Source: a virus
Virus record (IMG/VR): IMGVR_UViG_3300046167_000487
Location: 1 to 40,334 of that record
DNA: 40,334 nucleotides
Reading direction: 5' to 3' (one strand)
How positions within the stretch are numbered: the stretch's first letter is position 1; each line of letters begins with the position of its first letter. The notes beneath the pieces were generated by a model. It saw only the letters and a list, made by a program, of their open reading frames with translations. It did no database searches and had not been told where the DNA came from. The position numbers and the translations under genes were made by a program. Positions 1-36,362 of this stretch are shown here, one piece after another.

Positions 1-76
1 GCTTGTGGTTGATGTTGTCTTGCTTCAGTTGCTGGTAGTCCAGCGCGTCCCCATCATATCCGTCTTCAAATAACAT
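1..76 (-). CDS. Partial 5' end of the DNA-binding-like early protein (second copy, cut by window edge)
   Basis: Reading leftward from an ATG at 74-76 there are 25 codons (MLFEDGYDGDALD...) that closely match the N-terminus of the complete gene at 38093-39244. The frame runs off the window edge. The start overlaps the stop of the 93-residue gene, as in the right-hand copy. This shows that the left end of the window continues into the same gene order as the right end, as expected if the molecule is circular or terminally repeated. The function is discussed under the complete copy. Confidence 0.75.
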   Translation of the reverse strand, partial: MLFEDGYDGDALDYQQLKQDNINHK

Positions 77-347
77 ACCCTAGCTCTCCCATTAGCTTAA
101 TGAATCCGTAGTAGTCCAACTTCTTATCGAAGGTTTGCATGAACATATACAGCTCGTCTTCAGTAATCTTTTCTTCTCGGTAGTCCATGATAGCTTGCCA
201 TAGCTCTGCCCGTTTGGTCTGTCGACTCAGTGCAGCGCCGTACCTGTCGGTCGGGACGCGTACTACGTCACCCAGTCCGGTGTGATCGTTAGGGTTGGCG
301 CGTGCATCATCAATGGCAGTAAATAGTTCTTGGATGTAGTTCTTCAT
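66..347 (-). CDS. Small conserved early protein, 93 aa (left copy)
   Basis: This is an unrecognised acidic, Tyr- and Lys-rich soluble protein. It is near-identical (two substitutions: Ser for Asp in the RQTK segment, Val for Ala before the last residue) to the product of 39234-39515. Its start ATG overlaps the stop of the 30-residue gene upstream (CTATGA), and its own stop overlaps the start of the next gene. This is the tight coupling typical of a phage early operon. About 26 base changes against two amino-acid changes between copies argue that it is a real, selected protein. I cannot assign a function. Confidence 0.8.
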   Translation of the reverse strand: MKNYIQELFTAIDDARANPNDHTGLGDVVRVPTDRYGAALSRQTKRAELWQAIMDYREEKITEDELYMFMQTFDKKLDYYGFIKLMGELGYVI

Positions 348-436
348 AGTAAGCCCTCAGCTTTAAGTAGTTGAATTAGTTGGAGTTTGTCGCCCAGTGT
401 TAGGTTTTCCCAGAGTGTTTCCATTGGTAGTGTCAT
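344..436 (-). CDS. 30-aa Leu-rich micro-protein
   Basis: An ATG at 434-436 opens a 30-codon frame whose product ends in LQLIQLLKAEGLL, and whose TGA overlaps the ATG of the 93-residue gene. The C-terminal half, LGDKLQLIQLLKAEGLL, is preserved in frame in the right-hand copy near 39512-39565, but no good start codon is visible there. Conservation of this frame between diverged copies is the main support. The similar sequence EFIQLLEA in the neighbouring 62-residue frame suggests a local duplication. Function unknown. Confidence 0.45.
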   Translation of the reverse strand: MTLPMETLWENLTLGDKLQLIQLLKAEGLL

Positions 437-551
437 TTATGTCCTCAGCTAATCGCTTTAATCTGTACGCTTCAAGTAGTTGTATGAATTCTAGTATGGT
501 GTGTTCACCTTCTTTAACATCCGGTGTCGGTGGTTTGAATGTCGCTCTCAT
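363..551 (-). CDS. Hypothetical 62-aa protein unique to the left copy
   Basis: The ATG at 549-551 follows a GGAG element about nine bases upstream, so translation is plausible. The first ~40 residues (MRATFKPPTPDVKEGEHTIL...) look protein-like, while the Pro/Thr/Asn-rich tail lies out of frame over the 30-residue micro-gene. The segment coding for it is most of the ~115 bases absent from the right-hand copy. It may be a partial local duplication of the LQLIQLL-coding stretch. Function unknown. Confidence 0.4.
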   Translation of the reverse strand: MRATFKPPTPDVKEGEHTILEFIQLLEAYRLKRLAEDINDTTNGNTLGKPNTGRQTPTNSTT

Positions 552-735
552 CTATCTCTACTCCTTCAGCTAGTATCTTAACCAGTAGTCTATCAAGCTG
601 TCTACATGCTGAGCCATACGCCCACGTCGCACCCTGTGCCACCTTGTCGTCGGGGCAGTCTGCGTTCAGCCGTCGTTGGTGCTCGAGATTAGCCAACATC
701 CCCTGCAATTCGCCTAGTATTTGTAATTGGTTCAT
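514..735 (-). CDS. Small helical early protein, ~73 aa (left copy)
   Basis: Starting at the ATG at 733-735 (MNQLQILGELQGML), the frame matches the 69-residue gene at 39576-39785 almost residue for residue until the last ~12 residues. A single extra base near 752 removes the upstream stop, so the open frame formally extends to 870 and fuses it with the preceding gene. The ATGA overlap seen in the right copy argues that two separate genes are ancestral. The product is charged and helical with a Cys in GSACRQLDRL. Function unknown. Confidence 0.6.
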   Translation of the reverse strand: MNQLQILGELQGMLANLEHQRRLNADCPDDKVAQGATWAYGSACRQLDRLLVKILAEGVEIDESDIQTTDTGC

Positions 736-974
736 CGTCCCATGATCCCTCCAAGCTTCGTATATTTCATCGGCGCCATTGTCGTTGCGGTACATGTCAA
801 TGGCTGCGTCGAGCAGATCATCCTGCACCATGTCCGGCACTTCAGTCCAGCGCGCACACCGTGTCGTCAATGAGAGCTAGACACGTAGAAAAGTCTGCGT
901 CCCCGTCATCATGTACAGTCGACCCATGCTTCGTAGGTTACGCCGTCGATCGTCACTTCAGATAAGTATTTCAT
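732..974 (-). pseudogene. Frameshifted left copy of the 79-aa acidic protein
   Basis: The ATG at 972-974 begins MKYLSEVTIDGVTYEAWVD exactly as in the intact 40021-39782 gene. An extra base near 914 then shifts the frame to an early stop, and further small indels follow near 840-860 and 752. The downstream part is still recognisable in another frame (VPDMVQDDLLDAAIDMYRND). It could be a decayed duplicate, but the same kind of single-base insertion occurs in essential genes elsewhere in the window, so sequencing error is at least as likely. Confidence 0.6.
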
Positions 975-1171
975 TCTTCCTCCTTGTAGATGTCTAGCCA
1001 TGCGCTTGCAGTGGCTCTCGACTAGACGATAGCCAGACGCTCTACCCTCTAGCCATTGGACGTGCAATTCGCCCAGCTCAGTGTCAGTTAGCGACTCTTC
1101 AGCATCCTTGCAGCGTAGCCTCCGAATAGATCAGCGACTGCCATTAGCTGATTGTAAATATCCTTTCTCAT
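971..1171 (-). pseudogene. Frameshifted left copy of the 66-aa early protein
   Basis: The ATG at 1169-1171 (TAATG overlap with the stop of the membrane peptide) starts MRKDIYNQLMAVADLFGGYA, homologous to MMNKDIYEQLMAVSELFGSYA of 40218-40018. A missing base near 1107 moves the frame to an early stop. The rest of the homologous sequence (TELGELHVQWLEGRASGYRLVESHCKR in content) continues in another frame, with one more indel near 997. This could be a sequencing artefact or genuine decay. Confidence 0.6.
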
Positions 1172-1278
1172 TATAGCTCCCCTGTCAGTAACACGGCGTA
1201 CACCGTGATATAGAATAAACCCGCATAGATGATACAGCGGGCCGCGTGGTTCAAACGCTCTCGATCTTTACCTGTCAT
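1171..1278 (-). CDS. 35-aa single-pass membrane peptide (left copy)
   Basis: From the ATG at 1276-1278 the product is MTGKDRERLNHAAR followed by a hydrophobic stretch (IIYAGLFYITVYAVLL type), so it has a basic N-terminus and one membrane span. It is conserved with one change in the right-hand copy at 40215-40322. An in-frame extension upstream is possible, but this start is the one shared by both copies. Its stop overlaps the next start (TAATG). Function unknown; tiny early membrane proteins of phages often act on host envelope functions, which is only an analogy here. Confidence 0.65.
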   Translation of the reverse strand: MTGKDRERLNHAARCIIYAGLFYITVYAVLLTGEL

Positions 1279-1693
1279 TGTGGGTTCCTCCGCAACATGT
1301 ACATGGGCAAGTAGCTGCCACCTCAGACGCCATAAACTCTCGAATGGAATCCTTCTCATATCCTAGGGCGCGGCCCATGGTGCGTTGCAAGCGCTGCCGT
1401 GCAGCCGCTCCGGAGCGCGTAGCGGTAGGATAGCCGTCACCTACTAGCATTAGCTCTATGACCCATCCTTGCATTTCTTCTTTAGTGTCCGCCACGATTA
1501 GGAAGCGGTTAGCCTCTCCGCTCTCGCCTACTCCGTCCATGATAAAGGTTGCTAGACCCAGCTCACCAGCTGTCACGGCTAGCGTAGTGAGTGCTACTGC
1601 CGACTTCTCAGAGTCTGCAATGGCTAACGTTCGATTGCTGTTAGGGTTTGCAACGTCGGTTATGTCGCGAATGATTTGGTTAGTGTAGTTCAT
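1268..1693 (-). CDS. Hypothetical 141-aa early protein with C-terminal Cys cluster
   Basis: No family recognised. The frame is open for 141 codons from the ATG at 1693. The middle is Ala-rich with alternating hydrophobic stretches (SAVALTTLAVTAGELGLATF), and the C-terminus carries CPCTCCGGTH, a compact Cys/His group that could bind a metal. Its end overlaps the ATG of the membrane peptide, and its start overlaps the stop of the 69-residue gene. It belongs to the leftward early operon. Confidence 0.65.
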   Translation of the reverse strand: MNYTNQIIRDITDVANPNSNRTLAIADSEKSAVALTTLAVTAGELGLATFIMDGVGESGEANRFLIVADTKEEMQGWVIELMLVGDGYPTATRSGAAARQRLQRTMGRALGYEKDSIREFMASEVAATCPCTCCGGTHNDR

Positions 1694-1899
1694 GCTCTTA
1701 ACTCCTTTTCTCGAATGATAGTGTAGAAGATTCCGTCTTCAAATAATGCGGTCGACCAGTCTTCCTTGATCTCTACGTCCCCGACCATTTCAGCCAGTGC
1801 TTTAAGCTCAGCTATAGCGCCGTCATACGTGGCATAGACGCCTAGTACTTGCTCGCCTTCGTATTTCTCGCCCTCACTTAGTATCCATACATGTGACAT
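1690..1899 (-). CDS. Small early protein, 69 aa, beginning SHVWILSEGEKYEGE
   Basis: I chose the internal ATG at 1897-1899 because it follows a GAGGAA ribosome site, whereas the longer frame to 1950 starts inside a hairpin. The layout V-W-I-L-S-E-G-x-x-Y-E-G-E followed by V-L-G-V-Y-A-T-Y-D-G-A resembles the small alpha/beta DUF7336-type proteins found widely in phages. That resemblance is from memory and unproven. No catalytic motif is visible. Confidence 0.65.
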   Translation of the reverse strand: MSHVWILSEGEKYEGEQVLGVYATYDGAIAELKALAEMVGDVEIKEDWSTALFEDGIFYTIIREKELRA

Positions 1900-1941
1900 G
1901 ATACTTTCCTCTTTAGTTGTTGTTTGGTGTAGCTTCCTATT

Positions 1942-1982
1942 ATGCCCCACCTCAGGGCATTTCGACCAGTAGCTAGCTGGTC
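1942..1982 (-). promoter_or_regulatory. Two tandem RNA hairpins with 7-nt loops in an early operon gap
   Basis: Between two leftward genes there are two adjacent perfect 6-bp inverted repeats: GACCAG/CTGGTC (1964-1969, 1977-1982) and ATGCCC/GGGCAT (1942-1947, 1955-1960), each with a 7-base loop. Neither is followed by a T run on the coding strand, so simple termination is unlikely. They may be mRNA-processing or stabilising structures ahead of the 69-residue gene. TGCCC/GGGCA recurs as a hairpin at 12132-12146, just after the capsid terminator. Confidence 0.45.
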
Positions 1983-1985
1983 TCG

Positions 1986-2282
1986 TCAGATAGGTTTACC
2001 GTTCAGTAGTACTTCACCCTTTCGGGTACAGACGTCCACTCCAAGCGCTCTCAAGCGGCTCATAGTAGTTCGGGTGGGGTAGTCGCGCAGTGTGTCTACG
2101 TTAGGCTTGACGATGTCATCACATCCCATTCGGCATATAACCTCTGCAATGTGGTTACCGTGTAGGTAGACATCAGCGAAATACGACCGATAACTAGCGT
2201 CCACTTCGACGCAAGTATTATCCTTCGACCAGTCACGGCCGTGTTTGATAGCTTCCAGCATTTCCTTTTCAATAACTCTCAT
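1986..2282 (-). CDS. Conserved small phage protein, 98 aa (LHGN type)
   Basis: The product begins MRVIEKEMLEAIKHGRDW and contains NTCVEVD, VYLHGNHIAEV and a C-terminal segment with TRTTMSRLRALGVDV. This layout is familiar to me from small proteins of T7-like phages (an RxIExxMLxAI start, an LHGNxIA motif, a T-R-SRL motif near the end), for which I know no established function. The ATG overlaps the stop of the upstream gene. No signal peptide or membrane segment is visible. Confidence 0.65.
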   Translation of the reverse strand: MRVIEKEMLEAIKHGRDWSKDNTCVEVDASYRSYFADVYLHGNHIAEVICRMGCDDIVKPNVDTLRDYPTRTTMSRLRALGVDVCTRKGEVLLNGKPI

Positions 2283-2539
2283 TACACAATCCTCATTATG
2301 TTGGATGACGCGCCTACAGCGCCGTTACATACTTGACCAGACCCGACCGGCGGTACTCTACGCTGGCCTAGGAAGGGTGCTTCCTTGCCCATCCTGTTAT
2401 ACCCCTCTTTGATGAGCGCTTGAAGACATAGACGACGGGTTATGTTAGCTAACCGTTGCGCCCTTGTCTCTCCAAGTGAGTAGTACTCTACTTCCCAGCT
2501 ATCTACCACTTTTTCCATTTGCTTCATTGTTGGCTTCAT
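2282..2539 (-). CDS. Hypothetical 85-aa early protein
   Basis: The start ATG at 2537-2539 overlaps the stop of the next gene upstream. The N-terminal 55 residues are charged and helical (MEKVVDSWEVEYYSLGETRAQR). The C-terminal 30 residues are Gly/Pro/Val-rich and look different in composition, so a frame change near 2390 cannot be excluded. No known family. Confidence 0.5.
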   Translation of the reverse strand: MKPTMKQMEKVVDSWEVEYYSLGETRAQRLANITRRLCLQALIKEGYNRMGKEAPFLGQRRVPPVGSGQVCNGAVGASSNIMRIV

Positions 2540-2871
2540 TATTTCTTACTCCAAAGTTTGTTACGTGATTGAGCTTCTCGCTCTATGCGTTGTGCTGGTG
2601 TTTCTGGTGTGCGGTACATTGCAGCCAGCTCAGCTTCGAACTCCTTGCCGCTATACGTGTTGTTGCCAACCGATGCGGCCTCAGTGGTCTTGTTGACTTC
2701 AAAGCCAGCGTTAACCACACCGTCTAGCGTGTCGGGCTTGCTTGTTGCGTCATGCAAGGGCGTATCATCACGACCAGCCTTGCGACCCACGTAGACCTCG
2801 ACTATTTCCTGCTTCAGCTTGGTGCGAAGCCTAGCGGCCTTAGAGGCTCGCTTCATTGATATATTAGCCAT
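2539..2871 (-). CDS. First gene of the leftward early operon, 110 aa
   Basis: This is the promoter-proximal gene of the leftward cluster, starting at 2871 about 0.3 kb downstream of the promoter at 3187-3214, with AAGGA upstream of the start. The N-terminus is very basic (MANISMKRASKAARLRTKLK), suggesting nucleic-acid or acidic-partner binding. The rest is polar, and it ends with a charged helix (PAQRIEREAQSRNKLWSKK). No known family; its position suggests it is among the first phage proteins made. Confidence 0.6.
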   Translation of the reverse strand: MANISMKRASKAARLRTKLKQEIVEVYVGRKAGRDDTPLHDATSKPDTLDGVVNAGFEVNKTTEAASVGNNTYSGKEFEAELAAMYRTPETPAQRIEREAQSRNKLWSKK

Positions 2872-3183
2872 TGTAATTTCATCCTTTTGGAATCATCAGC
2901 GACACTGTCGAAGTGCCGTATTACATTGCCGATTGCGTTTTGGTTCACTCTTCACCGGACGTTTCACAACGTGTTGGCTCAGATCACCCAGCGCCGGTTA
3001 CTGCCTTTTACAGCAACGCGACTCCCTTATCGGACTTCCTTTCTACTCTCCACCCAATCCACCATAACAGTCGTGAGGGCTTCCTAGTAGGGAAGGGGCC
3101 ATATTTTATTCCAGCGTGGCTACACTTGGTCGATAATCGGTAGGGGCTTTCCGGAATCCGGTAGCGACATCCAGCCGATGAAT

Positions 3184-3214
3184 GGGAATATACAGCATTC
3201 CCCGAAGGCGTCAA
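3184..3214 (-). promoter_or_regulatory. Leftward sigma70-type early promoter with overlapping operator
   Basis: On the minus strand TTGACG (3209-3214) is followed after 16 bases by TATATT (3187-3192), each five of six matches to the sigma70 consensus. An inverted repeat GGGAAT/ATTCCC (3184-3189 and 3197-3202) overlaps the -10 and could be an operator. The AT-rich tract immediately upstream could act as an UP element. The promoter points at the early gene cluster starting at 2871. This is pattern recognition only. Confidence 0.6.
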
Positions 3215-3218
3215 CACC

Positions 3219-3266
3219 TAAATGCATTTATTTTCATATTTATTTGTATTATTTGTATTTATTTTC
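3219..3266. other. AT-rich tract (UP element or unwinding element)
   Basis: About 48 bases are almost pure A/T with very few G or C. Within them ATTTGTATT occurs twice in direct tandem (3242-3250, 3251-3259). The tract lies directly upstream of the -35 of the early promoter, where an alpha-CTD-binding UP element would sit. It is also adjacent to the G-rich array, as an easily melted part of an origin might be. Confidence 0.5.
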
Positions 3267-3409
3267 ACCGCATACTGGCAGCGATACAGATACAATTCAT
3301 AAGGGTTTATTCGGGGCCATTTGTTACCCCGACTTCCGCAAACCCCTTTGTACGTTAGTGTATTTTACGTTTGGGACTGGATGGTGGGCATAGTAGTGGT
3401 CATAGTAGT

Positions 3410-3590
3410 GGGCTAGATGGTGGGCTAGATGGTGGGCTGGATGGTGGGCTGGATGGTGGGCTGGATGGTGGGCTAGATGGTGGGCTGGATGGTGGGCTGG
3501 ATGGTGGGCTGGATGGTGGGCTAGATGGTGGGCTGGACTGGTGGGCTGGATGGTGGGCTGGATGGTGGGCTGGATGGTGGGCTGGATGGT
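3410..3590 (+). repeat. 12-bp G-rich tandem array, 15 units (GGGCTGGATGGT)
   Basis: Fifteen consecutive copies of GGGCTRGATGGT run from 3410 to 3590. All are 12 bp except unit 11 (GGGCTGGACTGGT, 13 bp). Units 1, 2, 6 and 10 have A instead of G at position 6, so part of the array has a 48-bp super-period, pointing to expansion in blocks of four. Related sequence precedes it (3374-3409), and one isolated unit follows near 3666. All G runs are on the plus strand. The array lies between divergent promoters and is not a gene. Confidence 0.95.
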
Positions 3591-3604
3591 GCTACATGAT
3601 ACAG

Positions 3605-3637
3605 TATATCATTATATCATCTTGTATTATCTTGTAT
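3605..3637. repeat. AT-rich short direct repeats next to the G-rich array
   Basis: TATATCAT occurs twice in tandem (3605-3612, 3613-3620), followed by ATCTTGTAT twice with a 10-base period (3619-3627, 3629-3637). They lie just after the G-rich array. Short iterated AT-rich repeats with helical-turn spacing are typical of initiator-binding or melting sites at origins, but no factor can be named. Confidence 0.5.
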
Positions 3638-3870
3638 CATTATGAGCTGAGGTCGAGGGGTCAGTGGGCTGGATGGTGCGGACTGGTAGCCGTACGATAC
3701 GACACGGGAGCCATACGACCCGATACGGGAGCCACACCCCACATCCTCCCCATCGGAAGCTGACAGGTGCCGGACTGGTAGACCACAATGTCTTATAGTA
3801 TGACCAAATAACTATCGAGTAGATCAATACATAAGACAATGTTACGATATATCATATCACAAGGCTGGAT

Positions 3871-3909
3871 GGGGGCTGGACGGGGGGCTGGATCGGACGG
3901 GGTGGGGGG
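3871..3909 (+). other. Strong G-quadruplex-forming sequence
   Basis: Four long G runs occur within 39 bases: five G at 3871-3875, six at 3882-3887, four at 3899-3902 and six at 3904-3909, with loops of 6, 11 and 1 bases. This meets the usual requirement for an intramolecular DNA G-quadruplex. The intervening CTGGA sequences relate it to the 12-bp array upstream, suggesting a degenerated extension of the same repeat. Confidence 0.75.
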
Positions 3910-4052
3910 CCTGTCGGCGACCTCACGGCACGGCACTTGGCGCTCCGGCTTGCAAAGAGGCCATTTGGGAAGCTATCGACTCACAAACAGAGGCAGGATA
4001 GCCCACCACAACAGAGCTGAGACCCCCGGATGGCCTACCTTTGAGTGGGATT

Positions 4053-4068
4053 AGTACCTTATGGTACT
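4053..4068. promoter_or_regulatory. Inverted repeat AGTACC-TTAT-GGTACT
   Basis: This is a perfect 6-bp inverted repeat around a 4-base centre, located about 60 bases upstream of the rightward promoter element and just before the tandem operators. It may be a binding site for a dimeric regulator. Related GTACCTTAAAG and GTACCATAAAG strings occur downstream at about 4271 and 4410, inside the leader of the structural operon. Confidence 0.4.
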
Positions 4069-4081
4069 TTGTCGGGTAAGG

Positions 4082-4125
4082 GTGCACCAAAATGGTGCGT
4101 TACTGTGCACCAAAGTGGTGCGTTA
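4082..4125. promoter_or_regulatory. Tandem pair of 15-bp inverted repeats (GCACCA-N3-TGGTGC)
   Basis: GTGCACCAAARTGGTGCGTTA occurs in two copies of 21 bp (4082-4102 and 4105-4125), a 23-base period, or about two helical turns. Each contains the perfect inverted repeat GCACCA/TGGTGC with a 3-base centre (4084-4098, 4107-4121). The copies differ at one base of that centre. They end five bases before the rightward promoter element and are centred about 82 and 59 bases before the expected transcription start, a typical activator position. The factor is unknown. Confidence 0.75.
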
Positions 4126-4129
4126 TGGG

Positions 4130-4169
4130 GACAAGAGGTCGATAATAACCCATTATTTGTTATATTATA
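4130..4169 (+). promoter_or_regulatory. 39-bp promoter element, copy 1, driving the structural operon
   Basis: The element starts GACAAGAGGTC (4130-4140), has TAACCCA in the middle and ends TTTGTTATATTATA, containing an extended -10 (TG-T-TATATT, -10 at 4161-4166). Two more copies with the same spacing lie at 36324-36362 and 38056-38094 on the minus strand. There is no -35 hexamer 16-18 bases upstream of the -10, so activation by a bound factor is likely. The first gene downstream starts at 4460, after a leader of about 290 bases. Confidence 0.75.
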
Positions 4170-4459
4170 GAGAGAGACACTTTATAGTACTATAAGGCAA
4201 ACCTTAAAGGCACTCCACTACGGCACATACTAAAGCTACTCACTAAAGCTTATTACTTTAGCTGTTGTCTGTACCTTAAAGCAGGGCCTTATAGTACTGA
4301 ACGTCTTCAAACAACAATGGAAGCCTCTAGCTGGATCGGTTCCTTAGCCCTACGGTTCATGCTTCCTACATTCTTACTTTAATTAGTCGTCGTCTGTACA
4401 ATACTGTACCATAAAGTAGCCGACTGATGCCTTAGAGCTGAACCACTGGAGGTCGTTGG
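4170..4459 (+). other. Long untranslated leader of the structural operon
   Basis: Between the promoter and the first structural gene there is a 14-bp perfect palindrome TTATAGTACTATAA (4182-4195), just after the expected start site. A hairpin CTAAAG/CTTTAG has a 7-base loop (4243-4248, 4256-4261). TACTATAAGG occurs at 4188-4197 and, inverted, at 4287-4296; the same 10-mer also follows promoter copy 3 (38050-38059, minus strand). A 21-codon frame begins at the ATG near 4318 but has no ribosome site, so I do not call it. The leader may be regulatory. Confidence 0.5.
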
Positions 4460-4825
4460 ATGTCGAAAGAAGTTAAAGGCCGCCCTACTAGAGCAGCCCT
4501 AGATGCAACAAAGGACTTAACCAAGAGAGAGCAGGCAGCAGCCATGAAGGAGTTCCGTAAGCGACTCCTACTGCACCCCTCCTCTCCTAAACTTATAGAG
4601 AAGCTATTCACTACAGCATTCGATGACGAAGCTAAACAACAAGGCTTAGCCATGAAGTTACTTGCGGATCGTCTTATGCCAGTCGCGGGGTTCACCAGTG
4701 ACGGGAAGCAGCAGAACCAAGTTAGCATTAACATTACTGGCATTGGGTCTACCGTTGGTACTTCTTCTGATGAGTCCCCTAGTGTCGTTATTGATGGATC
4801 AAGCGGAGAAGTGGAAGATGAGTAA
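4460..4825 (+). CDS. Terminase small subunit (putative)
   Basis: A 121-residue protein with a basic, helical N-terminal part (GRPTRAALDATKDLTKREQAAAMKEF), a helical middle and an acidic, Ser-rich tail ending SSGEVEDE. Small terminases recognise the packaging site and hand DNA to the large subunit. This call rests on position as first gene before endolysin and large terminase, on size, and on a basic start with an acidic tail; there is no diagnostic motif. GGAGG lies upstream of the ATG. The stop overlaps the next start (ATGAGTAA). Confidence 0.6.
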   Translation: MSKEVKGRPTRAALDATKDLTKREQAAAMKEFRKRLLLHPSSPKLIEKLFTTAFDDEAKQQGLAMKLLADRLMPVAGFTSDGKQQNQVSINITGIGSTVGTSSDESPSVVIDGSSGEVEDE

Positions 4826-5513
4826 AGGATCTGTACCCGCCACAAAGAAAGAAGCCATGAAGAAGCTGATTGGTGGTCTTGAGAGCAATGGCGACTACAA
4901 CATAATGGTTGGTGGTAAGAAGAAGCCATTAACCTCTATGACCATCGGTGAGGTCTTGGATATGCAATCCAAGATGGATGGAGACACAGCAGCTGGTAAG
5001 TACCAGATCAAAGAGTCCACCCTACGCTCCCTAGTGTACAAACCCGGCGAGAACGCTGGAGAGTACAGCGACAAGGAACGCAACCCCTCTGACTTCAGCC
5101 CCGATATGTTATTCGACGAGGCTGCTCAAGAGTGGGCTGCTGATGCTATCCTTGATCGTAGAGGATGGAAGGACTTCGAGGCAGGAAAGATTACAGACAA
5201 GCAGATGGCTACCAATCTAGCAAAGGAGTGGGCCTCACTGCCTGATCCTGCTAAGGGCGCTAATGTATCCCACTACGGTGGTGATGGTAAGCACGACAAC
5301 GCAACACGCGCCTCAGCTGATGACGTATTCAAGGTACTTAACGTAGTAGAAACCCAAGGAGGAATGAATGGCAGAAGTCAACCTATCGCTCCTCCCATGG
5401 CAGGAGAAGGTGCACAACGACCCAGCACGATTCAAGGTAATAGCAGCGGGGCGCCGATGCGGCAAGACCCACTACGCGGCGGTCACCCTCATCCTAGCAG
5501 CCTTAGACGGTAA
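4818..5513 (+). CDS. Endolysin-type peptidoglycan hydrolase (lysozyme-like)
   Basis: I start at the ATG at 4818, which overlaps the terminase stop, giving 231 residues; a longer frame to 4662 runs inside the terminase gene. The N-terminal domain has GLESNGDYN (Glu22, candidate catalytic acid), LTSMTIGEVL and AAGKYQI (58-64), then a late SHYGGDG motif. This pattern is typical of lysozyme-like muramidases of marine phages that cut the glycan backbone of the cell wall. The last ~49 residues lie out of frame over the terminase gene and look like chance translation, so the natural end may be near 5365. No signal peptide, so export would need a holin. Confidence 0.7.
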   Translation: MSKGSVPATKKEAMKKLIGGLESNGDYNIMVGGKKKPLTSMTIGEVLDMQSKMDGDTAAGKYQIKESTLRSLVYKPGENAGEYSDKERNPSDFSPDMLFDEAAQEWAADAILDRRGWKDFEAGKITDKQMATNLAKEWASLPDPAKGANVSHYGGDGKHDNATRASADDVFKVLNVVETQGGMNGRSQPIAPPMAGEGAQRPSTIQGNSSGAPMRQDPLRGGHPHPSSLRR

Positions 5514-6621
5514 CCCCGGTGGTGTAATGTACGTAGGCCCAACCATGGGTCTTGCACGTGACCTCATGTGGGACAAGCTGTTTGAGCTGGCCGGAGAGAT
5601 CATAGTATCCTCCAATGTGAATAACCTTGAGATAGTGCTTGCTGGTGGAGGGAAGATTGCCCTCAAAGGCTCGGACAGACCCGACACTTTACGAGGCTAC
5701 AGCCTCAAGCACTTAGTACTCGATGAGTTCGCGTTTCACAAAGATGGAGTCTTCGATACGATCCTCCGGCCAGCTCTTGCAGACCGTAAGGGATCTGCTA
5801 TATTCATTAGTACCCCCGAGGGTCGCAACCAGTTTTACGACGTTTACATGAACGGCGAAACGGGAAAGACAGGATGGGCCAGCTGGCACTTAACGTCCTT
5901 CGATAACCCACTCCTTGACCCCGAGGAAATACAGAATGCCAAAGAGACAATGCCCGGCTGGATGTTCCGACAGGAATTCCAAGCGTCCTTCGACGCTAAA
6001 GGTTCGGAGTTCTTCGATCCCGAAGCGTTCATCTACTACGACAAGAAGCCCGACATCCCCGGTGATTACTACATCGCCGTCGACTTGGCAGGCTTTGAGT
6101 CGGAGCGGGGTAACAAAACAAAGCGCAGGGACAACTCTGCAATGGCTGTGGTGTTCGTTACAGACGAAGGCACATGGCACGTTGAGGATGTACAGTACGG
6201 TCGTTGGACTCTAGACGAGACAGCTGAGAACATCTTCAAGGCAGTAGAGAAGTACAAGCCCATGGCAGTAGGGATCGAGAAAGGGATTGGACAGCAAGCC
6301 GTCATGAACCCTTTGAACGATCTCATGCGTCGTACCCATCGAGTGTTCAGGATCGAACTACTCACTCACGGTAATCAGCGCAAACAGGATAGGATCCTTT
6401 GGGCGCTGCAAGGCCGATTCGAGCATGGTAAGATTAAACTTAAGAAAGCAGATTGGAACCTTGCCTTGGTGGACGAGGCGTCGGCTTTTCCTAGCCAGCT
6501 GGTACATGATGATCTACTTGATGCCTTGGCTTATATCGACCAGATGGCAATCGTACCCTACGGCAATGCTGATGATTACGAAGATGACTATGAATACTTA
6601 GATGAGGTCGCAGGATACTAA
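5368..6621 (+). CDS. terL: Terminase large subunit (packaging ATPase-nuclease)
   Basis: A 417-residue motor protein that pumps phage DNA into the prohead and cuts the concatemer. The ATPase domain has Walker A AGRRCGKT (27-34), Walker B HLVLDE (115-120) and the coupling motif FISTPEG (146-152). The RNase H-like nuclease domain has its acidic residues in IAVDLAG (Asp239), VGIEK (Glu304) and HDDLLDALAY (Asp381-385). Length and motif order are normal, though it is shorter than T7 gp19 (~586). An AGGAGG site sits five bases before the ATG. It overlaps the glutaredoxin start by one base. Confidence 0.95.
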   Translation: MAEVNLSLLPWQEKVHNDPARFKVIAAGRRCGKTHYAAVTLILAALDGNPGGVMYVGPTMGLARDLMWDKLFELAGEIIVSSNVNNLEIVLAGGGKIALKGSDRPDTLRGYSLKHLVLDEFAFHKDGVFDTILRPALADRKGSAIFISTPEGRNQFYDVYMNGETGKTGWASWHLTSFDNPLLDPEEIQNAKETMPGWMFRQEFQASFDAKGSEFFDPEAFIYYDKKPDIPGDYYIAVDLAGFESERGNKTKRRDNSAMAVVFVTDEGTWHVEDVQYGRWTLDETAENIFKAVEKYKPMAVGIEKGIGQQAVMNPLNDLMRRTHRVFRIELLTHGNQRKQDRILWALQGRFEHGKIKLKKADWNLALVDEASAFPSQLVHDDLLDALAYIDQMAIVPYGNADDYEDDYEYLDEVAGY

Positions 6622-6893
6622 TGTATGATATATACGGTACGGAATGGTGCCCAGCTTGCACTATAGTAAAGAAGCACCTGACCTCTATCGACGTACCTTA
6701 CACCTTCACGCGCCTACCAGCTGGGCAGAGGGGATGGGAGATAGCAGAAGAACTTAGTGGCCGACGGGCCTTACCTGTCATTATGAAGCACGGATCTCAC
6801 ATGGAGATGACGGACTTCAAGGCAGAAGTAAACGCACTCGGTCGGACACCCCGTCCGCTTACCCAACAAGAACAGGATGAACTAGATGAGTGA
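6621..6893 (+). CDS. Glutaredoxin/thioredoxin-fold protein
   Basis: A 90-residue protein with the redox motif CPAC (Cys10, Cys13) after the first beta strand and a cis-proline in RALPVI (Pro52), the hallmarks of the glutaredoxin fold. It would reduce disulphides; the class II ribonucleotide reductase encoded on the other strand is a plausible client, but its position between terminase and portal instead ties it to late expression. It overlaps both neighbours by a few bases (TAATG at the start, shared bases with the portal start). Confidence 0.85.
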   Translation: MYDIYGTEWCPACTIVKKHLTSIDVPYTFTRLPAGQRGWEIAEELSGRRALPVIMKHGSHMEMTDFKAEVNALGRTPRPLTQQEQDELDE

Positions 6894-8904
6894 TGACATA
6901 TTTGAAGACTTCAGCTCAGCGACTGGGCCAGAAGACCTAGCCGAATGGGTGATGGGTCGCTGCAATGATTGGAGGGATCACTACGAGAGCAACTACTCCG
7001 AGAAGCACGAAGAGTACTACCGCATCTTTAGGAACCAATGGGCCAAAGAGGACTCCGAGAGGGACTCTGAACGGTCTCGCCTCATAGCCCCAGCTACAGC
7101 TCAAGCAGTTGAGTCCAACGTAGCTGAGATCGAAGAGGCTACATTTGGTCGTGGTAAGATCTTCGACATCAAGGACTCCTTCCAGATGGAAGCTGATCCT
7201 AATGCAGCACAGCAGATCAACTACCTCAAGAAGAAGCTGCACGAGGACTTCGGTCTTGCACGTGTACGCTCCTCCGTTGCTGAGGTTCTAATCAATGCAG
7301 CTGTGTACGGTACAGGGATTGCTGAGGTTGTCCTCGATGAGGTTAAGACCTACGCGCCCACCACCCAGCCAGCAATGGACGGGATGATTAACGAGATCGG
7401 AGTCACTGAGTCCTTCCGTCCTTTGGTTAAGCTCAACCCCGTAATGCCTAAGAACTTCTTGGTTGACCCATCAGCCACCTGTGTCGAAGAGGCACTGGGT
7501 TGTGCAGTTGATGAGTTCGTATCACGCCATGTCGTTGAAGAGCTACAGGAGTTCGGAGTCTACCGCGATGATGAAGTTGTGCACACAGCAGCCTCTGACT
7601 CAGAGATAGAGTTCGACACACAGATCACTACATCCCCTAAGGATCGTGTTCGTTTAACCAAGTACTACGGCAAGGTTCCTCGTGAACTCCTCCTAGGTGC
7701 TGGTGTAGAGGAAGACGAGATCGAGGAGACAGGTTACTACGTTGAAGCTGTCATCGTCCTAGCCAATGAGGGTACAGTACTGAAGGCTAACGCCAACCCT
7801 TACATGTGCCAAGACCGACCCATCGTAGCATTCCAGTGGGACATCGTACCTTCTACCTTCTGGGGTCGTGGTGTATGCGAGAAAGCCTACATGAGCCAGA
7901 AGGCTCTTGATGCTGAACTCCGTGCACGTATGGACGCTCTAGCCCTAACTACCCATCCTATGCTAGCTGTAGATGCTACCCGCATTCCACGTGGCAGCAA
8001 GATGGAAGTACGACCCGGACGTATCATCCGAACCCAAGGTAATCCTCAAGAGACATTGATGCCCTTCAAGTTCGGTGAGCTAAGCAACGCAAGCTTCCAG
8101 CAGTCAGCAACTCTCCAACAGATGGTGAGTCAAGCTACTGGAGCAGCTGAGGCTAACGCTGGTATGGTGCAGAATGATGTAACAGCTGCGGGTCAGTCCA
8201 TGTCCCAAGGCGCTATCGTTAAGCGACAGAAGCGAACCCTCTTGAACTTCCAAGAGAACTTCCTACTGCCCTTCGTAACTAAGGCAGCTTATCGGTACAT
8301 GCAGTTTGACCCAGAGAACTACCCAGTACAGGACTACACGTTCACAGCCTTCAGCTCCTTAGGTGCTATGGCCCGTGAGTACGAAGTAGCTCAGCTGAGT
8401 CAGATACTCCAGATGGTTGGCCCTGAGTCACCGGCTCATCCAGCAATCATCAAGGGTATCATCGACCACCTCAACGTCAGCAACAGGGAAGAGTTGATAG
8501 CCGCTATTGATGCAGCTAACCAGCCCAACCCAGAAGCAGAGCAGAAGCAACAGCAGATGCAGGAAGAAGCACACCAAGCCCAGATGGCTATACAGCAGGG
8601 GCAGGTTGCCTTGTTGAACGGTCAAGCTGAGGAGTCCATGAGTCGTGCGAATAAGTACAACACTGAGACACAGCTGATGCCTGAAGAGCTTACACTCAAG
8701 TATGCTGAGGATGATGACGAGAAAGAGTTCCAACGTAAAGCTAAGATGTCTGAACTACTACTGAGGGAGCAAGAGCTTCAGGGTAAGCAGAACCTCTCAG
8801 CTATGCAAACCAAAGCTAAGGCTGAGGGTGAGCTAGCGAAGGAACTAATGGGGCATGAAGCCCAGCTCTCTAAGAGGCCACAGGAGCCTCCACAGGGCAT
8901 GTAA
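6886..8904 (+). CDS. Portal (head-tail connector) protein
   Basis: A 672-residue protein that forms the ring through which DNA enters and leaves the head and where the tail docks. Features: acidic N-terminus, WRDHYESNYSEKHEEYYRIFRNQW and SRLIAPATAQAVESNVAEIEE, the typical start of marine podovirus portals; a beta-rich centre; and a long Gln/Glu/Ala-rich helical C-terminus (about 540-672) that fits the barrel of podoviral portals. The position directly after large terminase supports the call. Confidence 0.9.
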   Translation: MSDDIFEDFSSATGPEDLAEWVMGRCNDWRDHYESNYSEKHEEYYRIFRNQWAKEDSERDSERSRLIAPATAQAVESNVAEIEEATFGRGKIFDIKDSFQMEADPNAAQQINYLKKKLHEDFGLARVRSSVAEVLINAAVYGTGIAEVVLDEVKTYAPTTQPAMDGMINEIGVTESFRPLVKLNPVMPKNFLVDPSATCVEEALGCAVDEFVSRHVVEELQEFGVYRDDEVVHTAASDSEIEFDTQITTSPKDRVRLTKYYGKVPRELLLGAGVEEDEIEETGYYVEAVIVLANEGTVLKANANPYMCQDRPIVAFQWDIVPSTFWGRGVCEKAYMSQKALDAELRARMDALALTTHPMLAVDATRIPRGSKMEVRPGRIIRTQGNPQETLMPFKFGELSNASFQQSATLQQMVSQATGAAEANAGMVQNDVTAAGQSMSQGAIVKRQKRTLLNFQENFLLPFVTKAAYRYMQFDPENYPVQDYTFTAFSSLGAMAREYEVAQLSQILQMVGPESPAHPAIIKGIIDHLNVSNREELIAAIDAANQPNPEAEQKQQQMQEEAHQAQMAIQQGQVALLNGQAEESMSRANKYNTETQLMPEELTLKYAEDDDEKEFQRKAKMSELLLREQELQGKQNLSAMQTKAKAEGELAKELMGHEAQLSKRPQEPPQGM

Positions 8905-8925
8905 GGCAGGAAGCCATACAATCAC

Positions 8926-8948
8926 AAGGGGTTGCATAAGCGCCCCTT
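8926..8948 (+). terminator. Hairpin between portal and the next gene (weak terminator or processing site)
   Basis: AAGGGG (8926-8931) and CCCCTT (8943-8948) form a 6-bp stem around an 11-base loop in the 66-base gap after the portal gene. The T stretch is only TT followed by AG, so it is at best an attenuator. It may tune expression between portal and downstream genes. Confidence 0.35.
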
Positions 8949-8970
8949 AGAAGCCCACTGAGGAGCTTAT

Positions 8971-9300
8971 ATGGCTATATCGCTTAAAGACCACAACAAC
9001 GGATACTTCGGATACATGAGTCAAGACGTTAAAGACGCCTTGGCTGAGTTGCAGGATGTAACGCAGCACATGCACTCCAGTATAATGTACAACCCCAATG
9101 GTGACATAGGGATGCACAGCCTTACTGTACTAAACAATATGCGGGTAGTAGGGGAGCTAGAAGTCTCCAGCGGTAAGATCGTAATGGATCACACACAGCT
9201 ACCGGTATACGCAGACAACGCAGCAGCTTTAGCTGACGGCTTAGAGGTTGGACATATCTATGCTACATCAGCTGGGCAGCTAATGATTACACACTTATGA
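8971..9300 (+). CDS. Putative minor virion protein, 109 aa
   Basis: No firm family. The C-terminal third reads LPVYADNAAALADGLEVGHIYATSAGQLMITHL in content, a motif seen at the ends of many phage structural and fibre-associated proteins (a YxxNxAAxAxGLxxGxxYxTxxG pattern). The N-terminal part is polar and Met/His-rich. It follows the portal gene with GAGGAG upstream of the start and overlaps the next gene by four bases, so it is probably a late structural or assembly protein. Confidence 0.6.
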   Translation: MAISLKDHNNGYFGYMSQDVKDALAELQDVTQHMHSSIMYNPNGDIGMHSLTVLNNMRVVGELEVSSGKIVMDHTQLPVYADNAAALADGLEVGHIYATSAGQLMITHL

Positions 9301-9488
9301 GCTTTGTAGTCCTCGAAGTAGAGGGCGAAGTCACGGCTATTAACCTATCCAGAGTAGACAGGATTGTGCACTCCTTCAAAGCAGGGAAGGACAATCTGGA
9401 CTTCTACTTTAATAGAACAGAGAAGTACACAGTGGAGGACATTACACTAGAGCACATCCTCCATGATCTACCTACGTATAAACTATAA
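9297..9488 (+). CDS. Hypothetical 63-aa late protein
   Basis: The ATG overlaps the stop of the preceding gene (ATGA). The product is a small mixed alpha/beta protein with no membrane segment (SFVVLEVEGEVTAINLSRVDRIV...), ending THE-like (LEHILHDLPTYKL). I do not recognise the family. Tight coupling supports it being translated. Confidence 0.55.
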   Translation: MSFVVLEVEGEVTAINLSRVDRIVHSFKAGKDNLDFYFNRTEKYTVEDITLEHILHDLPTYKL

Positions 9489-9499
9489 CAGGATCTCCC

Positions 9500-9709
9500 A
9501 TGGAATACCGAACAGCAGTAGCAATCGGTGGGATTGTGACACTAACACTAGCATGCTTTGTCCTCTATGCTAATGCAGAGGGTAACAATGCACACTTGAA
9601 TCAAGAAGTAACACACCAGATCATGGATCATATTCTTATGTTCTTTTCTGGTGCACTAGTAGGTGTCGGCACCGACCGACTCATAAGGAAAGCGACCTCA
9701 AGGAGATAA
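9500..9709 (+). CDS. Small two-span membrane protein, holin candidate
   Basis: A 69-residue protein with two hydrophobic segments, about residues 6-25 (VAIGGIVTLTLACFVLYANA) and 45-60 (ILMFFSGALVGVG), and a basic C-terminus (DRLIRKATSRR). Size, two spans and charged tail suit a class II-type holin, which would let the endolysin at 4818 reach the wall. It sits in the late operon. Holins have little sequence conservation, so this is inference from topology. Confidence 0.5.
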   Translation: MEYRTAVAIGGIVTLTLACFVLYANAEGNNAHLNQEVTHQIMDHILMFFSGALVGVGTDRLIRKATSRR

Positions 9710-9714
9710 TCGCA

Positions 9715-9870
9715 ATGGCATCATTGGTAGACGAGAAGAAGTTCAACGAGCTGGTAGAGAGCACAACCCACTACCTCCAGAGTATCCTTAACAGGGTAAC
9801 TGCTTTGGAAAAGGAAGTGGCTGAGCTGAAGGCTAAGAAGACAATCAGCAGGAGTAAGAAGGATGACTGA
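9715..9870 (+). CDS. 51-aa coiled-coil mini-protein
   Basis: ATG at 9715-9717 with GGAGATAATC upstream; 51 codons to the TGA at 9868-9870, which overlaps the next gene's start. The central part follows a heptad pattern (YLQSILNRVTALEKEVAELK), predicting a short coiled coil, and the tail is very basic (KAKKTISRSKK). It lies between the membrane protein and a small conserved gene. Role unknown; it could be a minor structural or lysis-timing protein. Confidence 0.6.
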   Translation: MASLVDEKKFNELVESTTHYLQSILNRVTALEKEVAELKAKKTISRSKKDD

Positions 9871-10096
9871 AGACGAGAAGTTCTTTGATGCATCACGGGA
9901 CATGTTCCTTGGAGATGGTTGGAACTTCTTCATGTCCGAAGTAGAACTCAAGCTGGAGTCTACCACGTTAGACCATTGCAACAGCACAGAGGACTTCTGG
10001 CTTGCCAAGGGCAGGCTGCAAGCACTCCGTGAGATATACATATACGAAGACCAAGTTAAAGAAGCTGAGGAGTCCTACGATGCGAAGGATCTATGA
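9863..10096 (+). CDS. Conserved small late protein of podoviruses, 77 aa
   Basis: The layout is an acidic start, DMFLGDGWNFFMSEVE, a polar middle, then FWLAKGRLQALREIYIYED. Many podoviruses carry a similar short gene between portal and scaffold (DxFxxxGWxxFxxDxE ... GRLxxLRxI). No function is established as far as I know. It overlaps both neighbours by a few bases. Confidence 0.65.
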   Translation: MTEDEKFFDASRDMFLGDGWNFFMSEVELKLESTTLDHCNSTEDFWLAKGRLQALREIYIYEDQVKEAEESYDAKDL

Positions 10097-10298
10097 TGTA
10101 CGTTGTACGGACACTAGCTGTAACGAAATGACCGAAGTGTTTGGTAGGGAGTCAGATGATTTCCGGTGCGGAGCCTGTGGCTCTCCTGCTAACACTGTCA
10201 TCTCTCCGGGGAACTTTGTACTTGAAGGCGTTACTGGGGACTACCCCGGTGCTGCTATCAAGTGGAAACGTGACCACGAGCGGAGAGCCAAGGGATAA
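10080..10298 (+). CDS. Zinc-ribbon small protein, 72 aa
   Basis: I start at the ATG at 10080, which overlaps the previous gene; a longer frame to 10002 would sit inside it. The product has two Cys pairs, CTDTSC near residue 8 and CGACG near residue 30, forming a likely zinc ribbon. It then has an LEGVTGDYPGAAIKWKRDHERR-type tail that I recognise from small phage proteins between portal and scaffold genes. It could be an assembly or regulatory factor; function unknown. Confidence 0.65.
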   Translation: MRRIYDVRCTDTSCNEMTEVFGRESDDFRCGACGSPANTVISPGNFVLEGVTGDYPGAAIKWKRDHERRAKG

Positions 10299-10312
10299 CC
10301 TAGGATAACCTA
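10293..10312 (+). repeat. Tandem 10-bp repeat GGATAACCTA x2
   Basis: GGATAACCTA occurs twice back to back (10293-10302, 10303-10312); the first includes the stop codon of the zinc-ribbon gene. It lies in the 63-base gap before the scaffold gene, one of the few gaps in the late block. It is too short to assign, perhaps a regulatory site for scaffold/capsid expression. Confidence 0.5.
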
Positions 10313-10361
10313 GACCCCTTTACATTTATCTGATAAGCCTTTAAGGCCCGGAGTTTAATAA

Positions 10362-11192
10362 ATGGCTACATTGATTGATACCGATGGTGAAGTTGTCGCA
10401 GAGACAAGCAACCTTACTTTAGATGATATGGTAGAAGAAACACCTGAAACGACTGAGGTAGCTCCTGAGTCAGCTGAGGTGGAGTCCACTACTGAAGAAC
10501 CTAATGAGGATGCCCTCCCCGATAAGTACCAAGGTAAGTCTGCTACAGACATAGCTCGTATGCACCAAGAGCTAGAGAAGCGCTTAGGACAACAGTCGTC
10601 CGAAGTCGGAGAGCTTAGGCAAGCCTTCGACGATATGGTACGACAAGGTATGGCGCAGCAGGCTCCAGCACCGGAAGTAACGGAAGTCGAAGAGGTTGAC
10701 TTCTTTGCTGATCCGAACGCCGCTGTGAACCAAGCGATAGCGAACAACCCCGTAATGCGACAGATGCAGGCAGCTACTGTACAGTTGCAGAAGGAGAAGT
10801 CCCTTACCGCTATTCAAGCAAAGCACCCTGACATGAAGGACGTTATCGGCACCGACAAGTTTCAAACTTGGGTGAAGGGTAGCCAGTTCCGTCAGAACTT
10901 GTTTGCTCAAGCAGATCGTAACTACGACTTTGCAGCAGCAGATGAACTGTTGACACTCTACAAAGACACGCAGGGCGTTGTCAAGAGTCAAGCAGCAGTT
11001 GAGAAGGTAGCAAAGAAAGCCGAACTTAAGAAGGCTTCCACTGGCTCGTCACGTTCTAACCCAGAGGGTCAATCAACCCGAAAGGTTTATCGAAGGCGTG
11101 ACATTATTGAACTAATGAACAGCGATCCGAAACGGTACGCAGCAATGTCTGAGGAGATAATGAAAGCGTACGCGGAGGGACGCGTTAAATAA
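10362..11192 (+). CDS. Capsid assembly scaffolding protein
   Basis: A 276-residue acidic protein immediately before the capsid gene. Residues 1-50 are extremely Glu/Thr-rich and disordered, followed by the typical LPDKYQGKSATDIARMHQELEKRLG segment, a helical middle and a basic C-terminal helix (KVYRRRDIIELMNSDPKRYAAMSEEI) that would bind capsid subunits. This matches T7-like scaffolding proteins, which guide prohead assembly and leave before packaging. GGAG lies eight bases upstream of the ATG. Confidence 0.88.
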   Translation: MATLIDTDGEVVAETSNLTLDDMVEETPETTEVAPESAEVESTTEEPNEDALPDKYQGKSATDIARMHQELEKRLGQQSSEVGELRQAFDDMVRQGMAQQAPAPEVTEVEEVDFFADPNAAVNQAIANNPVMRQMQAATVQLQKEKSLTAIQAKHPDMKDVIGTDKFQTWVKGSQFRQNLFAQADRNYDFAAADELLTLYKDTQGVVKSQAAVEKVAKKAELKKASTGSSRSNPEGQSTRKVYRRRDIIELMNSDPKRYAAMSEEIMKAYAEGRVK

Positions 11193-11211
11193 CCCTTAAA
11201 GGAATATCATC

Positions 11212-12084
11212 ATGGCACTTGGAACTAACCACGTAACAAACGCAACCGCAGCCACTTTCATCCCAGAGATCTGGAGTGACGAGATCATTGCTTCTTACGA
11301 GAAGTCATTGGTAGTTAAGCCCCTCGTTCGCGCTATGTCTATGGTCGGCAAGAAGGGCGATACCATCCGTATCCCTAAGCCAGATCGTGGTTCTGCTTCT
11401 GCCAAAGTAGCAGAGACTGAAGTTACTCTTATCGCTGGCACCACTGGCGAGTTGGTCATCAGCATCGACCAGCACTTCGAGTACTCACGTCTGATCGAAG
11501 ACATCACTGGTGTACAGGCTCAGAACAGCCTCCGTACATTCTACACGCAAGACGCTGGCTACGCTCTGGCAACTAAGGTTGACACTGACCTTATCGCCGA
11601 AGCTAACTCTGGCTTCACTGCTAAGAAGTCTTTCGTATCTGGTGGAATCGCTGACGAAGCTGGCGCAACTACTACTGCTTTCAACGATGCAGGCTTACGT
11701 GCTGCAATCCAGATCTTAGATGACAACGACGTACCCGGCGACAGCCGTGTATTAGTTATCCCACCTGCCGTTAAGATGGCAATGTTGGGTGAGTCTAACT
11801 ACATCTCTAGCGACTTCGTTGCTGGTTCACCTGTAACCAACGGTAAGCTTGGAAGCATCTACGGCGTTGAGCTGTACGTTTCTACTAACCTGACTGGTAA
11901 CGCTGGTGAGAAGAACTGTATCCTTATGCACAAAGACGGTCTTGTATTCGCTGAGCAGCTGGGTGTTCGCACTCAAACTCAGTACAAGCAAGAGCACTTG
12001 GCTGACCTCATGACTGCTGATACTATCTACGGATTCGAGACTTACCGTCCCGAGTGCGGCGTTACTATCGCAGCATTGGTATAA
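11212..12084 (+). CDS. Major capsid protein
   Basis: A 290-residue protein with an HK97-type capsid layout: N-terminal arm with TFIPEIWSDEIIASYEKSLVVKPLVR, GDTIRIPKP, an A-domain region VLVIPPAVKMAMLGESNYISSDF, and a C-terminal LADLMTADTIYGFETYRPECGVTIAAL. It directly follows the scaffold with a short gap and GGAATA upstream, and is followed by a strong terminator hairpin, as usual for the most abundant virion protein. Codon use is biased towards C-ending codons compared with its neighbours. Confidence 0.93.
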   Translation: MALGTNHVTNATAATFIPEIWSDEIIASYEKSLVVKPLVRAMSMVGKKGDTIRIPKPDRGSASAKVAETEVTLIAGTTGELVISIDQHFEYSRLIEDITGVQAQNSLRTFYTQDAGYALATKVDTDLIAEANSGFTAKKSFVSGGIADEAGATTTAFNDAGLRAAIQILDDNDVPGDSRVLVIPPAVKMAMLGESNYISSDFVAGSPVTNGKLGSIYGVELYVSTNLTGNAGEKNCILMHKDGLVFAEQLGVRTQTQYKQEHLADLMTADTIYGFETYRPECGVTIAALV

Positions 12085-12094
12085 GCTAAACCTT

Positions 12095-12120
12095 AGCGGT
12101 CCTTCGGGGCCGCTTTCTTC
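12095..12120 (+). terminator. UUCG-loop terminator after the capsid gene
   Basis: AGCGGTCC (12095-12102), loop TTCG (12103-12106) and GGGCCGCT (12107-12114) form an 8-bp stem with one G-T pair and the very stable C(UUCG)G tetraloop, followed by TTCTTC. This is a rho-independent terminator, probably partial, since fibre and tail genes follow in the same direction. A second small hairpin, TGCCC/GGGCA (12132-12136, 12142-12146), lies before the next gene. Confidence 0.8.
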
Positions 12121-12173
12121 TGTCTGTCCTTTGCCCACAGAGGGCATACAAAAGAATCCTATCGGAGCATACA

Positions 12174-12929
12174 ATGGCATCATATACACCTACTACTAAC
12201 TTCGGCGCTAAAGACTCTCTCCCATCCAACGACCCAAACAAGGTTGTTAAAGGTGCTGAGTTCACTGATGAGTTCGAGGCTATCTCTACTGCACTCTCAG
12301 GTGTAGCCCCTACACTAGACCCTGTGTTTACAGGTACACTTACAGCAGCTGACATCTCAGCCGCCTCTATCACACTGACAGGTAACGCCGCAGCAGTAGG
12401 CATCACAGCTACTGACATCACATACACTGGCGTACTGTCCGGCCCTGCTGGTGCCTTAGCCACTGAGCAGTATGCTACTGATCTAGTCAACGCAGCTGTA
12501 CTGGCTCCTATCACGGGCTTCGATTCGTTGGGTGACGTCAACGTAGCAGGTGTCACAGACGGTCAGTCTATCGTATGGGACAACGCCAACAGCGAGTGGG
12601 TTGCGACCAGCACCTTGAAGGCTGACAGCTTCGTAGAGACACACAGCGTAACGACTGGTGTTCTGGACTGCTCTGTATCTAACGTATTCTCAGCTGTACT
12701 CACTGCACCTACAACGTTCAGCTTCACCAATGTACCAGCAGTAGATGGCGCATACGCCTGCACCTTAGACCTCACAGCAGCAGGTAATGCTGTAACGTGG
12801 CCTGCCGGTGTCGTATGGCCCTCAGCAACTCCCCCAGCACTGAGCGCAGGGAGGGATGTTATTGTATTCTTTACTCGCGATGCGGGTACTACATGGAACG
12901 GCTTTGTCGCCGGACAGGAGATGGGATGA
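12174..12929 (+). CDS. Virion appendage / tail-fibre protein, 251 aa
   Basis: The N-terminus (YTPTTNFGAKDSLPSNDPNK, then GAEFTDEFEAIS) is the tail-attachment motif seen in many phage fibre proteins. A short Ala/Thr-rich repeat part follows, then a DSLGDVNVAGVTDGQSIVWD motif and a beta-rich C-terminal domain typical of particle-surface proteins. It probably links longer fibre parts to the tail. It overlaps the next gene by four bases (ATGA), so the two products may form one fibre complex. Confidence 0.75.
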   Translation: MASYTPTTNFGAKDSLPSNDPNKVVKGAEFTDEFEAISTALSGVAPTLDPVFTGTLTAADISAASITLTGNAAAVGITATDITYTGVLSGPAGALATEQYATDLVNAAVLAPITGFDSLGDVNVAGVTDGQSIVWDNANSEWVATSTLKADSFVETHSVTTGVLDCSVSNVFSAVLTAPTTFSFTNVPAVDGAYACTLDLTAAGNAVTWPAGVVWPSATPPALSAGRDVIVFFTRDAGTTWNGFVAGQEMG

Positions 12930-15544: not shown

Positions 15545-15554
15545 GGAGTAATAC

Positions 15555-16872: not shown

Positions 16873-16876
16873 CAGA

Positions 16877-34571: not shown

Positions 34572-34586
34572 AATGGTATCCTTTGA

Positions 34587-36252: not shown

Positions 36253-36323
36253 ACTCAGCGTTCTCCTGTTGTGTTTGAAGTTCTAAAACATATGCTCCCA
36301 TCTTACTCATAAGTTCTCCTCTC

Positions 36324-36362
36324 ATAATATAACAAATAGTGGGTTAGTGTTGACCTCTTGTC
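36324..36362 (-). promoter_or_regulatory. 39-bp promoter element, copy 2, upstream of DNA polymerase
   Basis: On the minus strand it begins GACAAGAGGTC (36362-36352), continues with CTAACCCA and ends TTTGTTATATTAT, the same order and spacing as the other two copies. The first bases overlap the TGA stop of the primase-helicase gene (CTTTGACAAG), so the element is packed into a 108-base gap. The next real start is the DNA polymerase at 36252, about 65 bases after the expected transcription start. Confidence 0.75.

Follow-up and report, generated by a model that had tools for sequence, protein, structure and literature searches.

Several phages turn host RNA polymerase to their middle and late genes by means of an activator of their own, as T4 does with MotA, Mu with Mor and C, and P2 with Ogr. 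As in the mechanism proposed here, the activator's own site by the -10 box replaces the -35, and host polymerase is directed to later genes. Unlike the putative regulator described below, MotA, Mor/C and Ogr are not derivatives of HNH/AP2 homing endonucleases, and we know of no description of them that includes private, fast-changing site codes with module swapping. The T7-type system offers a second comparison, with which the present locus shares an early product whose gene directly precedes those for replication, several near-identical phage promoters per genome, and promoter specificity that diverges between relatives. It differs from that system in that no polymerase gene was found, in the length of the site (∼36 bp versus about 23), and in that specificity changes appear tied to a small DNA-binding protein.

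The HNH-AP2 genes of phages have been discussed previously (PMC10448857), and regulation derived from homing endonucleases is represented by the plant AP2/ERF factors, CapR of the PLE satellites and the repression exerted by I-TevI (PMC10448857). In these cases, the DNA-binding part of a homing endonuclease is reused for gene regulation, as we propose for the present protein; those are plant factors, a satellite repressor and a still-active enzyme, whereas the present one would activate the middle/late genes of the phage that encodes it. The phage HNH_3-AP2 homing endonucleases (PHROG 99) resemble it in the C-terminal domain, both in sequence and in predicted fold. Unlike them, the putative regulator has lost the catalytic residues, carries a long extra N-terminal part, keeps a fixed place before the primase gene and has its proposed sites in the genome that encodes it. 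A search of mostly open-access literature gave no report of a phage using a dead HNH-AP2 endonuclease as its own promoter switch, although homing-endonuclease-derived regulators and phage proteins that activate host polymerase have each been described. From sequence comparisons, we consider it likely that host RNA polymerase is activated at three middle/late promoters of the phage studied here by a domesticated homing endonuclease without nuclease function.

The window, that is, the whole stretch of DNA analyzed, is a virus record of 40,334 bases, and no near DNA match to its positions 1 to 20000 was found among deposited phages. The pattern GACAAGAGGTC-N5-TAACCCA-N3-TTTGTTATAT had exactly three matches in it (4130-4165, +; 36362-36327, -; and 38094-38059, -), in agreement with the three copies of identical internal spacing claimed in an earlier note on this DNA, while the reversed control pattern gave no matches. 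With a 40-column weight matrix, the three copies scored 50 to 54, and the next-best position in the window scored 14. The element is directional and ∼36 bp long, and PHROG matches confirmed that each copy points at a major gene block. The late-site copy (4130-4169, + strand), an exact pattern match found at the same place in relatives L006 and L084, points to the terminase/structural block. The first open reading frame (ORF) of that block (4460-4825, +, from the ORF list, with homologs in relatives) is probably the small terminase, a function read from its gene place, and the large terminase lies at 5368-6621 (+; PHROG 2, E 2.1e-47). The primase-site copy (38055-38094, -) begins within the stop codon that ends the putative regulator ORF (38093-39250, -) and aims at the primase-helicase gene (36361-38004, -; PHROG 239, E 1.9e-166), which it would control. 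For its part, the polymerase-site copy (36323-36362, -) starts inside the primase-helicase stop codon and aims at a small ORF and the DNA polymerase gene (34552-36252, -; PHROG 17, E 1.2e-127), which would be under its control. These last two pattern matches recur at the same places in L006, L075, L004 and L086. Two tandem palindromes, GTGCACCAAAATGGTGC (4082-4125; TRF period 23), lie directly upstream of the late copy only, and are present before that copy in L006 and L084 as well (L084 1962-2006, GCACTGTTTTGGTGC); a second operator for the structural block is a possible function.

The absence of a phage RNA polymerase, also claimed in the earlier note, was borne out for the T7-type enzyme. 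A search for it (PF00940) was blank in the window and in 11 relatives, and the positive control, pelagiphage HTVC019P, was detected with an E value of 4e-106. The sites were accordingly not assigned to the T7-type promoter class, which is read by a phage single-subunit RNA polymerase.

To study the element in other phages, relatives were collected by DNA polymerase and primase searches, which yielded ∼150 loci (some being overlapping fragments of the same contig), and the closest elements were located by a degenerate pattern search of these loci. One match, in L085, was left out as possibly due to chance, the contig containing neither primase nor polymerase, and L084 and L086, two contigs of one metagenome, were assumed to represent one phage. 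Lack of conservation in relatives had been named beforehand as an outcome that would speak against the element; the element was found at the same places, with its specificity bases changed, in phages whose DNA polymerase is 96 to 99% identical to that of the window. L006 (polymerase 99% identical) carries GACAAACGCGGT..TCACCCA..TTTGTTATAT at each of the three places, L075 (96% identical) carries GACAACGGGGGT..TAACCCA..TTACGTATAT at both available places, and L084/L086 carries [GA/AG]CAAACTGTC at three of three. L004/L087 has the motif of the window although its polymerase is only 63% identical, with a degenerate polymerase-site copy. In the aligned sites, ten columns (6 to 11, 18 and 29 to 31) vary between phages and never within one phage, a concerted change with a P value of 4e-4 when phage labels were permuted within sites. 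Such concerted change at all sites implies a trans-acting, phage-specific reader. The spacer bases, in contrast to these columns, mostly follow location across phages, which excludes copying of the whole element as a block. The conserved upstream half described in the earlier note is retained at all sites within a phage. It differs between close relatives, which means that the element has no single fixed sequence. The concerted sequence changes and a probable trans-acting factor go beyond what that note had proposed.

Matched primase and late elements were also sought in more distant phages, with the gene that precedes the primase as a guide. G001 (L015 plus L153) showed CAACATACCCC-N2-TTGCCCC-N3-TTACCCATAGGTATAAGGAC at both the primase and late places, and L094 showed AGGTCCCCCCTAACCGGTCC-N4-TCGGAAT at both. 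In L091, CTAATTCACCTTACCATGTCCAC[CT]TCAGTACTAT was present at three places, and in L108/L010, [CG]ACAAAGTGTCCTTTTG[TC]AC was present at the primase, late and polymerase places. The conserved part in these phages appears to cover roughly 30 bp ahead of a -10-like hexamer. At least eight distinct matched elements were obtained overall, and the gene precedes them in all phages where elements were found.

The protein encoded by this gene in the window (38093-39250, -; 385 amino acids according to the ORF list, with a predicted TTG start; PHROG 99, E 8.9e-27) appears to be the best candidate for the reader. Comparison of the window with L006 revealed at least 90% DNA identity in 150-bp segments from 39365 to 33366, except in the segments covering 38465-38166, the 3' part of this ORF, where identity fell to 62 to 67% between flanks of 91% or more; the most distal segment (39515-39366) was 83% identical. 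In the protein, residues 10 to 270 are 97% identical between the two phages, residues 271 to 300 are 50% identical (Fisher, 3e-7), and residues 301 to 345 are 59% identical. The codons for residues 271 to 345 (38216-38440, -) behave as an exchangeable module that diverges from L006 and tracks the motif, and this module is probably the DNA-reading part. In the same-motif pair window/L087, residues 271 to 300 are 87% identical versus 73% elsewhere, a contrast that is not significant alone (P = 0.13), whereas pairs with differing motifs show the opposite trend, these residues being less conserved than the remainder. Motif distance correlated with distance in residues 271 to 345 once the rest of the protein was accounted for (0.92, P = 0.01, in five phages; partial correlation of 0.34, P = 0.03, in nine), a co-variation that rests on few independent events because the module, in which dS is high, changed as one block. 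Point mutation under positive selection was not supported for this module, since dS is high there too; the block was probably replaced by recombination, like the modules of other modular specificity systems.

A different reader of phage-factor-dependent promoters seems rather unlikely to us. It could be a small, highly variable protein from the early region (1285-2900) or an undetected polymerase or sigma-like factor. The early region (∼1285-3720), which encodes small unknown proteins, differs between the window and L006 as well, and the 36-bp length of the element, with TATA followed by a purine-rich start, resembles phage-polymerase promoters. Against this, the C terminus of the putative regulator is the only strongly diverged block in an otherwise near-identical stretch and is kept in the same-motif pair, no T7-type polymerase was found, and it is this gene that precedes the matched elements wherever these were found.

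Sister phages that lack the gene indicate what the places themselves are. In L034, L104 and L133, TTGACW-17-TAARAT is common to the late and primase places, with 22 to 27 of 34 positions identical between them; shuffles reach 22, so L034 taken alone would not stand out. The same sigma70 pattern was found at the primase and polymerase places in L020, L030, L032 and others without the gene. Since sister phages carry sigma70 promoters at the same places, promoter function there is very probable, and phages with the regulator gene very probably lost the -35 in favor of a private upstream site. In agreement with the earlier note, no -35 was present at the proper distance from the -10-like box of the elements. 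Mean sigma70 scores of gene-bearing and gene-less phages were not significantly different (P = 0.28), in a comparison that counted some regulator-bearing loci (L004, L010, L074 and L080) as lacking it; the scores fail to separate the groups because many gene-less phages also have no recognizable sigma70 promoter there. A -10-like box without a -35, joined to a phage-specific upstream site, is what would be expected of promoters served by a phage activator, and the earlier proposal that the upstream block resembles an activator site is upheld to the extent that the sites behave like promoters needing a phage factor.

These observations also bear on whether the HNH-derived protein could bind the three sites as a repressor, or as a replication or packaging mark, rather than as an activator. 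Repressors derived from homing endonucleases exist (I-TevI and CapR; PMC10448857), and binding beside the -10 could block polymerase. We nevertheless find this role improbable: the -35 has been lost where sister phages keep it, which fits a need for activation, and the sites are directional and stand at the head of each gene block.

The C-terminal half of the putative regulator matches phage HNH endonucleases (PHROG 99; viral HNH matches in Foldseek, E 5e-9). The window protein itself gave no Pfam match, while HNH_3 was detected in 15 of 27 aligned family members and AP2 in 5 of 27, and by domain it belongs with the HNH_3-AP2 homing endonucleases. It lacks the catalytic residues of the HNH motif (Asp-His and Asn), VETGGTSDLRISSL occupying the position of IDHINGxxxDNRxxNL in intact relatives. 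None of the proteins encoded directly before the primase (∼20 loci) has the catalytic Asp-His, and in several the entire metal-binding loop is gone, whereas every short, free-standing HNH relative encoded at other positions of the sister genomes retains D-H-I and N-R..NL. The N-terminal ∼230 residues are predicted, with low confidence, to be mainly helical and have no known relative, all matches to cultured phages falling on the HNH part. A first structure model, built from nine sequences, was poor, and a Foldseek search of the model against the PDB gave no match. The gene was not found in bacterial genome contigs.

A homing endonuclease that is still selfish and recognizes the elements, or elements that are remnants of such sites, are suggested by the domain family and by the position of the gene next to one site. 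This seems very improbable, given the loss of the catalytic Asp-His in all primase-preceding members, the presence of three uncleaved sites within one genome, and the location of the sites at the head of operons with a -10-like box retained; the fixed place of the gene before the primase likewise would speak against mobility.

The 3' end of the element had been described as an extended -10, a resemblance that holds for the window, L006 and L084 (TGTTATATT), but at both L075 sites, which read TTACGTATAT, TG is replaced by AC, so TG belongs to the variable specificity, and the sites were not assigned to the extended -10 class, which has TGn before the -10 throughout. Look-alike extended -10 sigma70 promoters of the ordinary kind, or a single promoter duplicated to three places, are hardly credible despite that resemblance, as L075 has no TG at either site, all sites retain the upstream block, whose changes are concerted, and the mostly location-specific spacers exclude block duplication.

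Activation by the nuclease-dead protein would proceed as follows. Early genes are presumably transcribed from host sigma70 promoters, running leftwards around the genome ends; a sigma70 candidate for the early operon lies at 3214-3187 (-), with a score not above chance. Early transcription would come last to the regulator gene, right before the first of the regulator's own target promoters. The three elements would be middle/late promoters for host RNA polymerase, with a -10-like box and no -35, in which a nonpalindromic binding site of ∼30 bp abutting the -10 stands in for the -35. The regulator, an HNH_3-AP2 homing endonuclease that has lost its catalytic residues and would have turned into a phage transcription switch, would bind the three sites over about -43 to -13 and recruit or position host polymerase, turning on the genes for replication and the structural block, which is oriented the opposite way. 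The role of this protein as the reader, an activating and not a repressing effect, the use of the host's polymerase and this order of expression are all inferred from the sequence.

Several repeats were observed in and near the early region and the genome ends. Positions 1-1278 and 39166-40322 of the window are the same stretch with ∼90% identity, as if the genome were circular or terminally redundant and the assembly had continued beyond its junction into the sequence of a variant strain. A divergent intergenic region (3384-3591) holds ∼15 copies of the 12-bp unit GTGGGCTGGATG, and arrays of 11- to 12-bp units with other or related sequences occupy the same region in L006, L084, G001 (L153 1320-1416) and L094. 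Multicopy repeats also occur in the early regions of L024 (864-2240), L017 (2311-3690), L080 (1157-1370) and L008 (2001-3741), most with a palindromic GAGAAYNRTTCTC-like core (TGAGAATGATTCTCA in L024 and TGAGAACGGTTCTCA in L017). In more distant relatives, TTATAACATGTTATAA is repeated in L065 (35 and 620), L067 (1799 and 2235) and L069 (803 and 1408), and the variant TTATAACAATGTTATAA in L063 (217 and 2147), in several cases right before the ribosome site of small genes.

We regard as fairly probable the wider proposal of a family of switches derived from dead HNH-AP2 endonucleases, in which an exchangeable DNA-reading module co-evolves with all middle/late promoters of the phage, each phage type has a private code, and close kin without the gene use plain sigma70 promoters at the corresponding places. 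A selfish endonuclease apparently was made into a regulator inside a phage, which may answer how genes are timed in podovirus-like phages without an RNA polymerase of their own. The natural matched protein-DNA pairs, with at least eight distinct elements, are a data set for the DNA-recognition code of HNH/AP2 proteins. Private codes in near-identical phages also raise the question of why turnover is so fast, avoidance of cross-talk in co-infection and escape from host or satellite interference being candidate reasons. If true, the proposed switch would be a previously undescribed means by which a virus takes control of host transcription.
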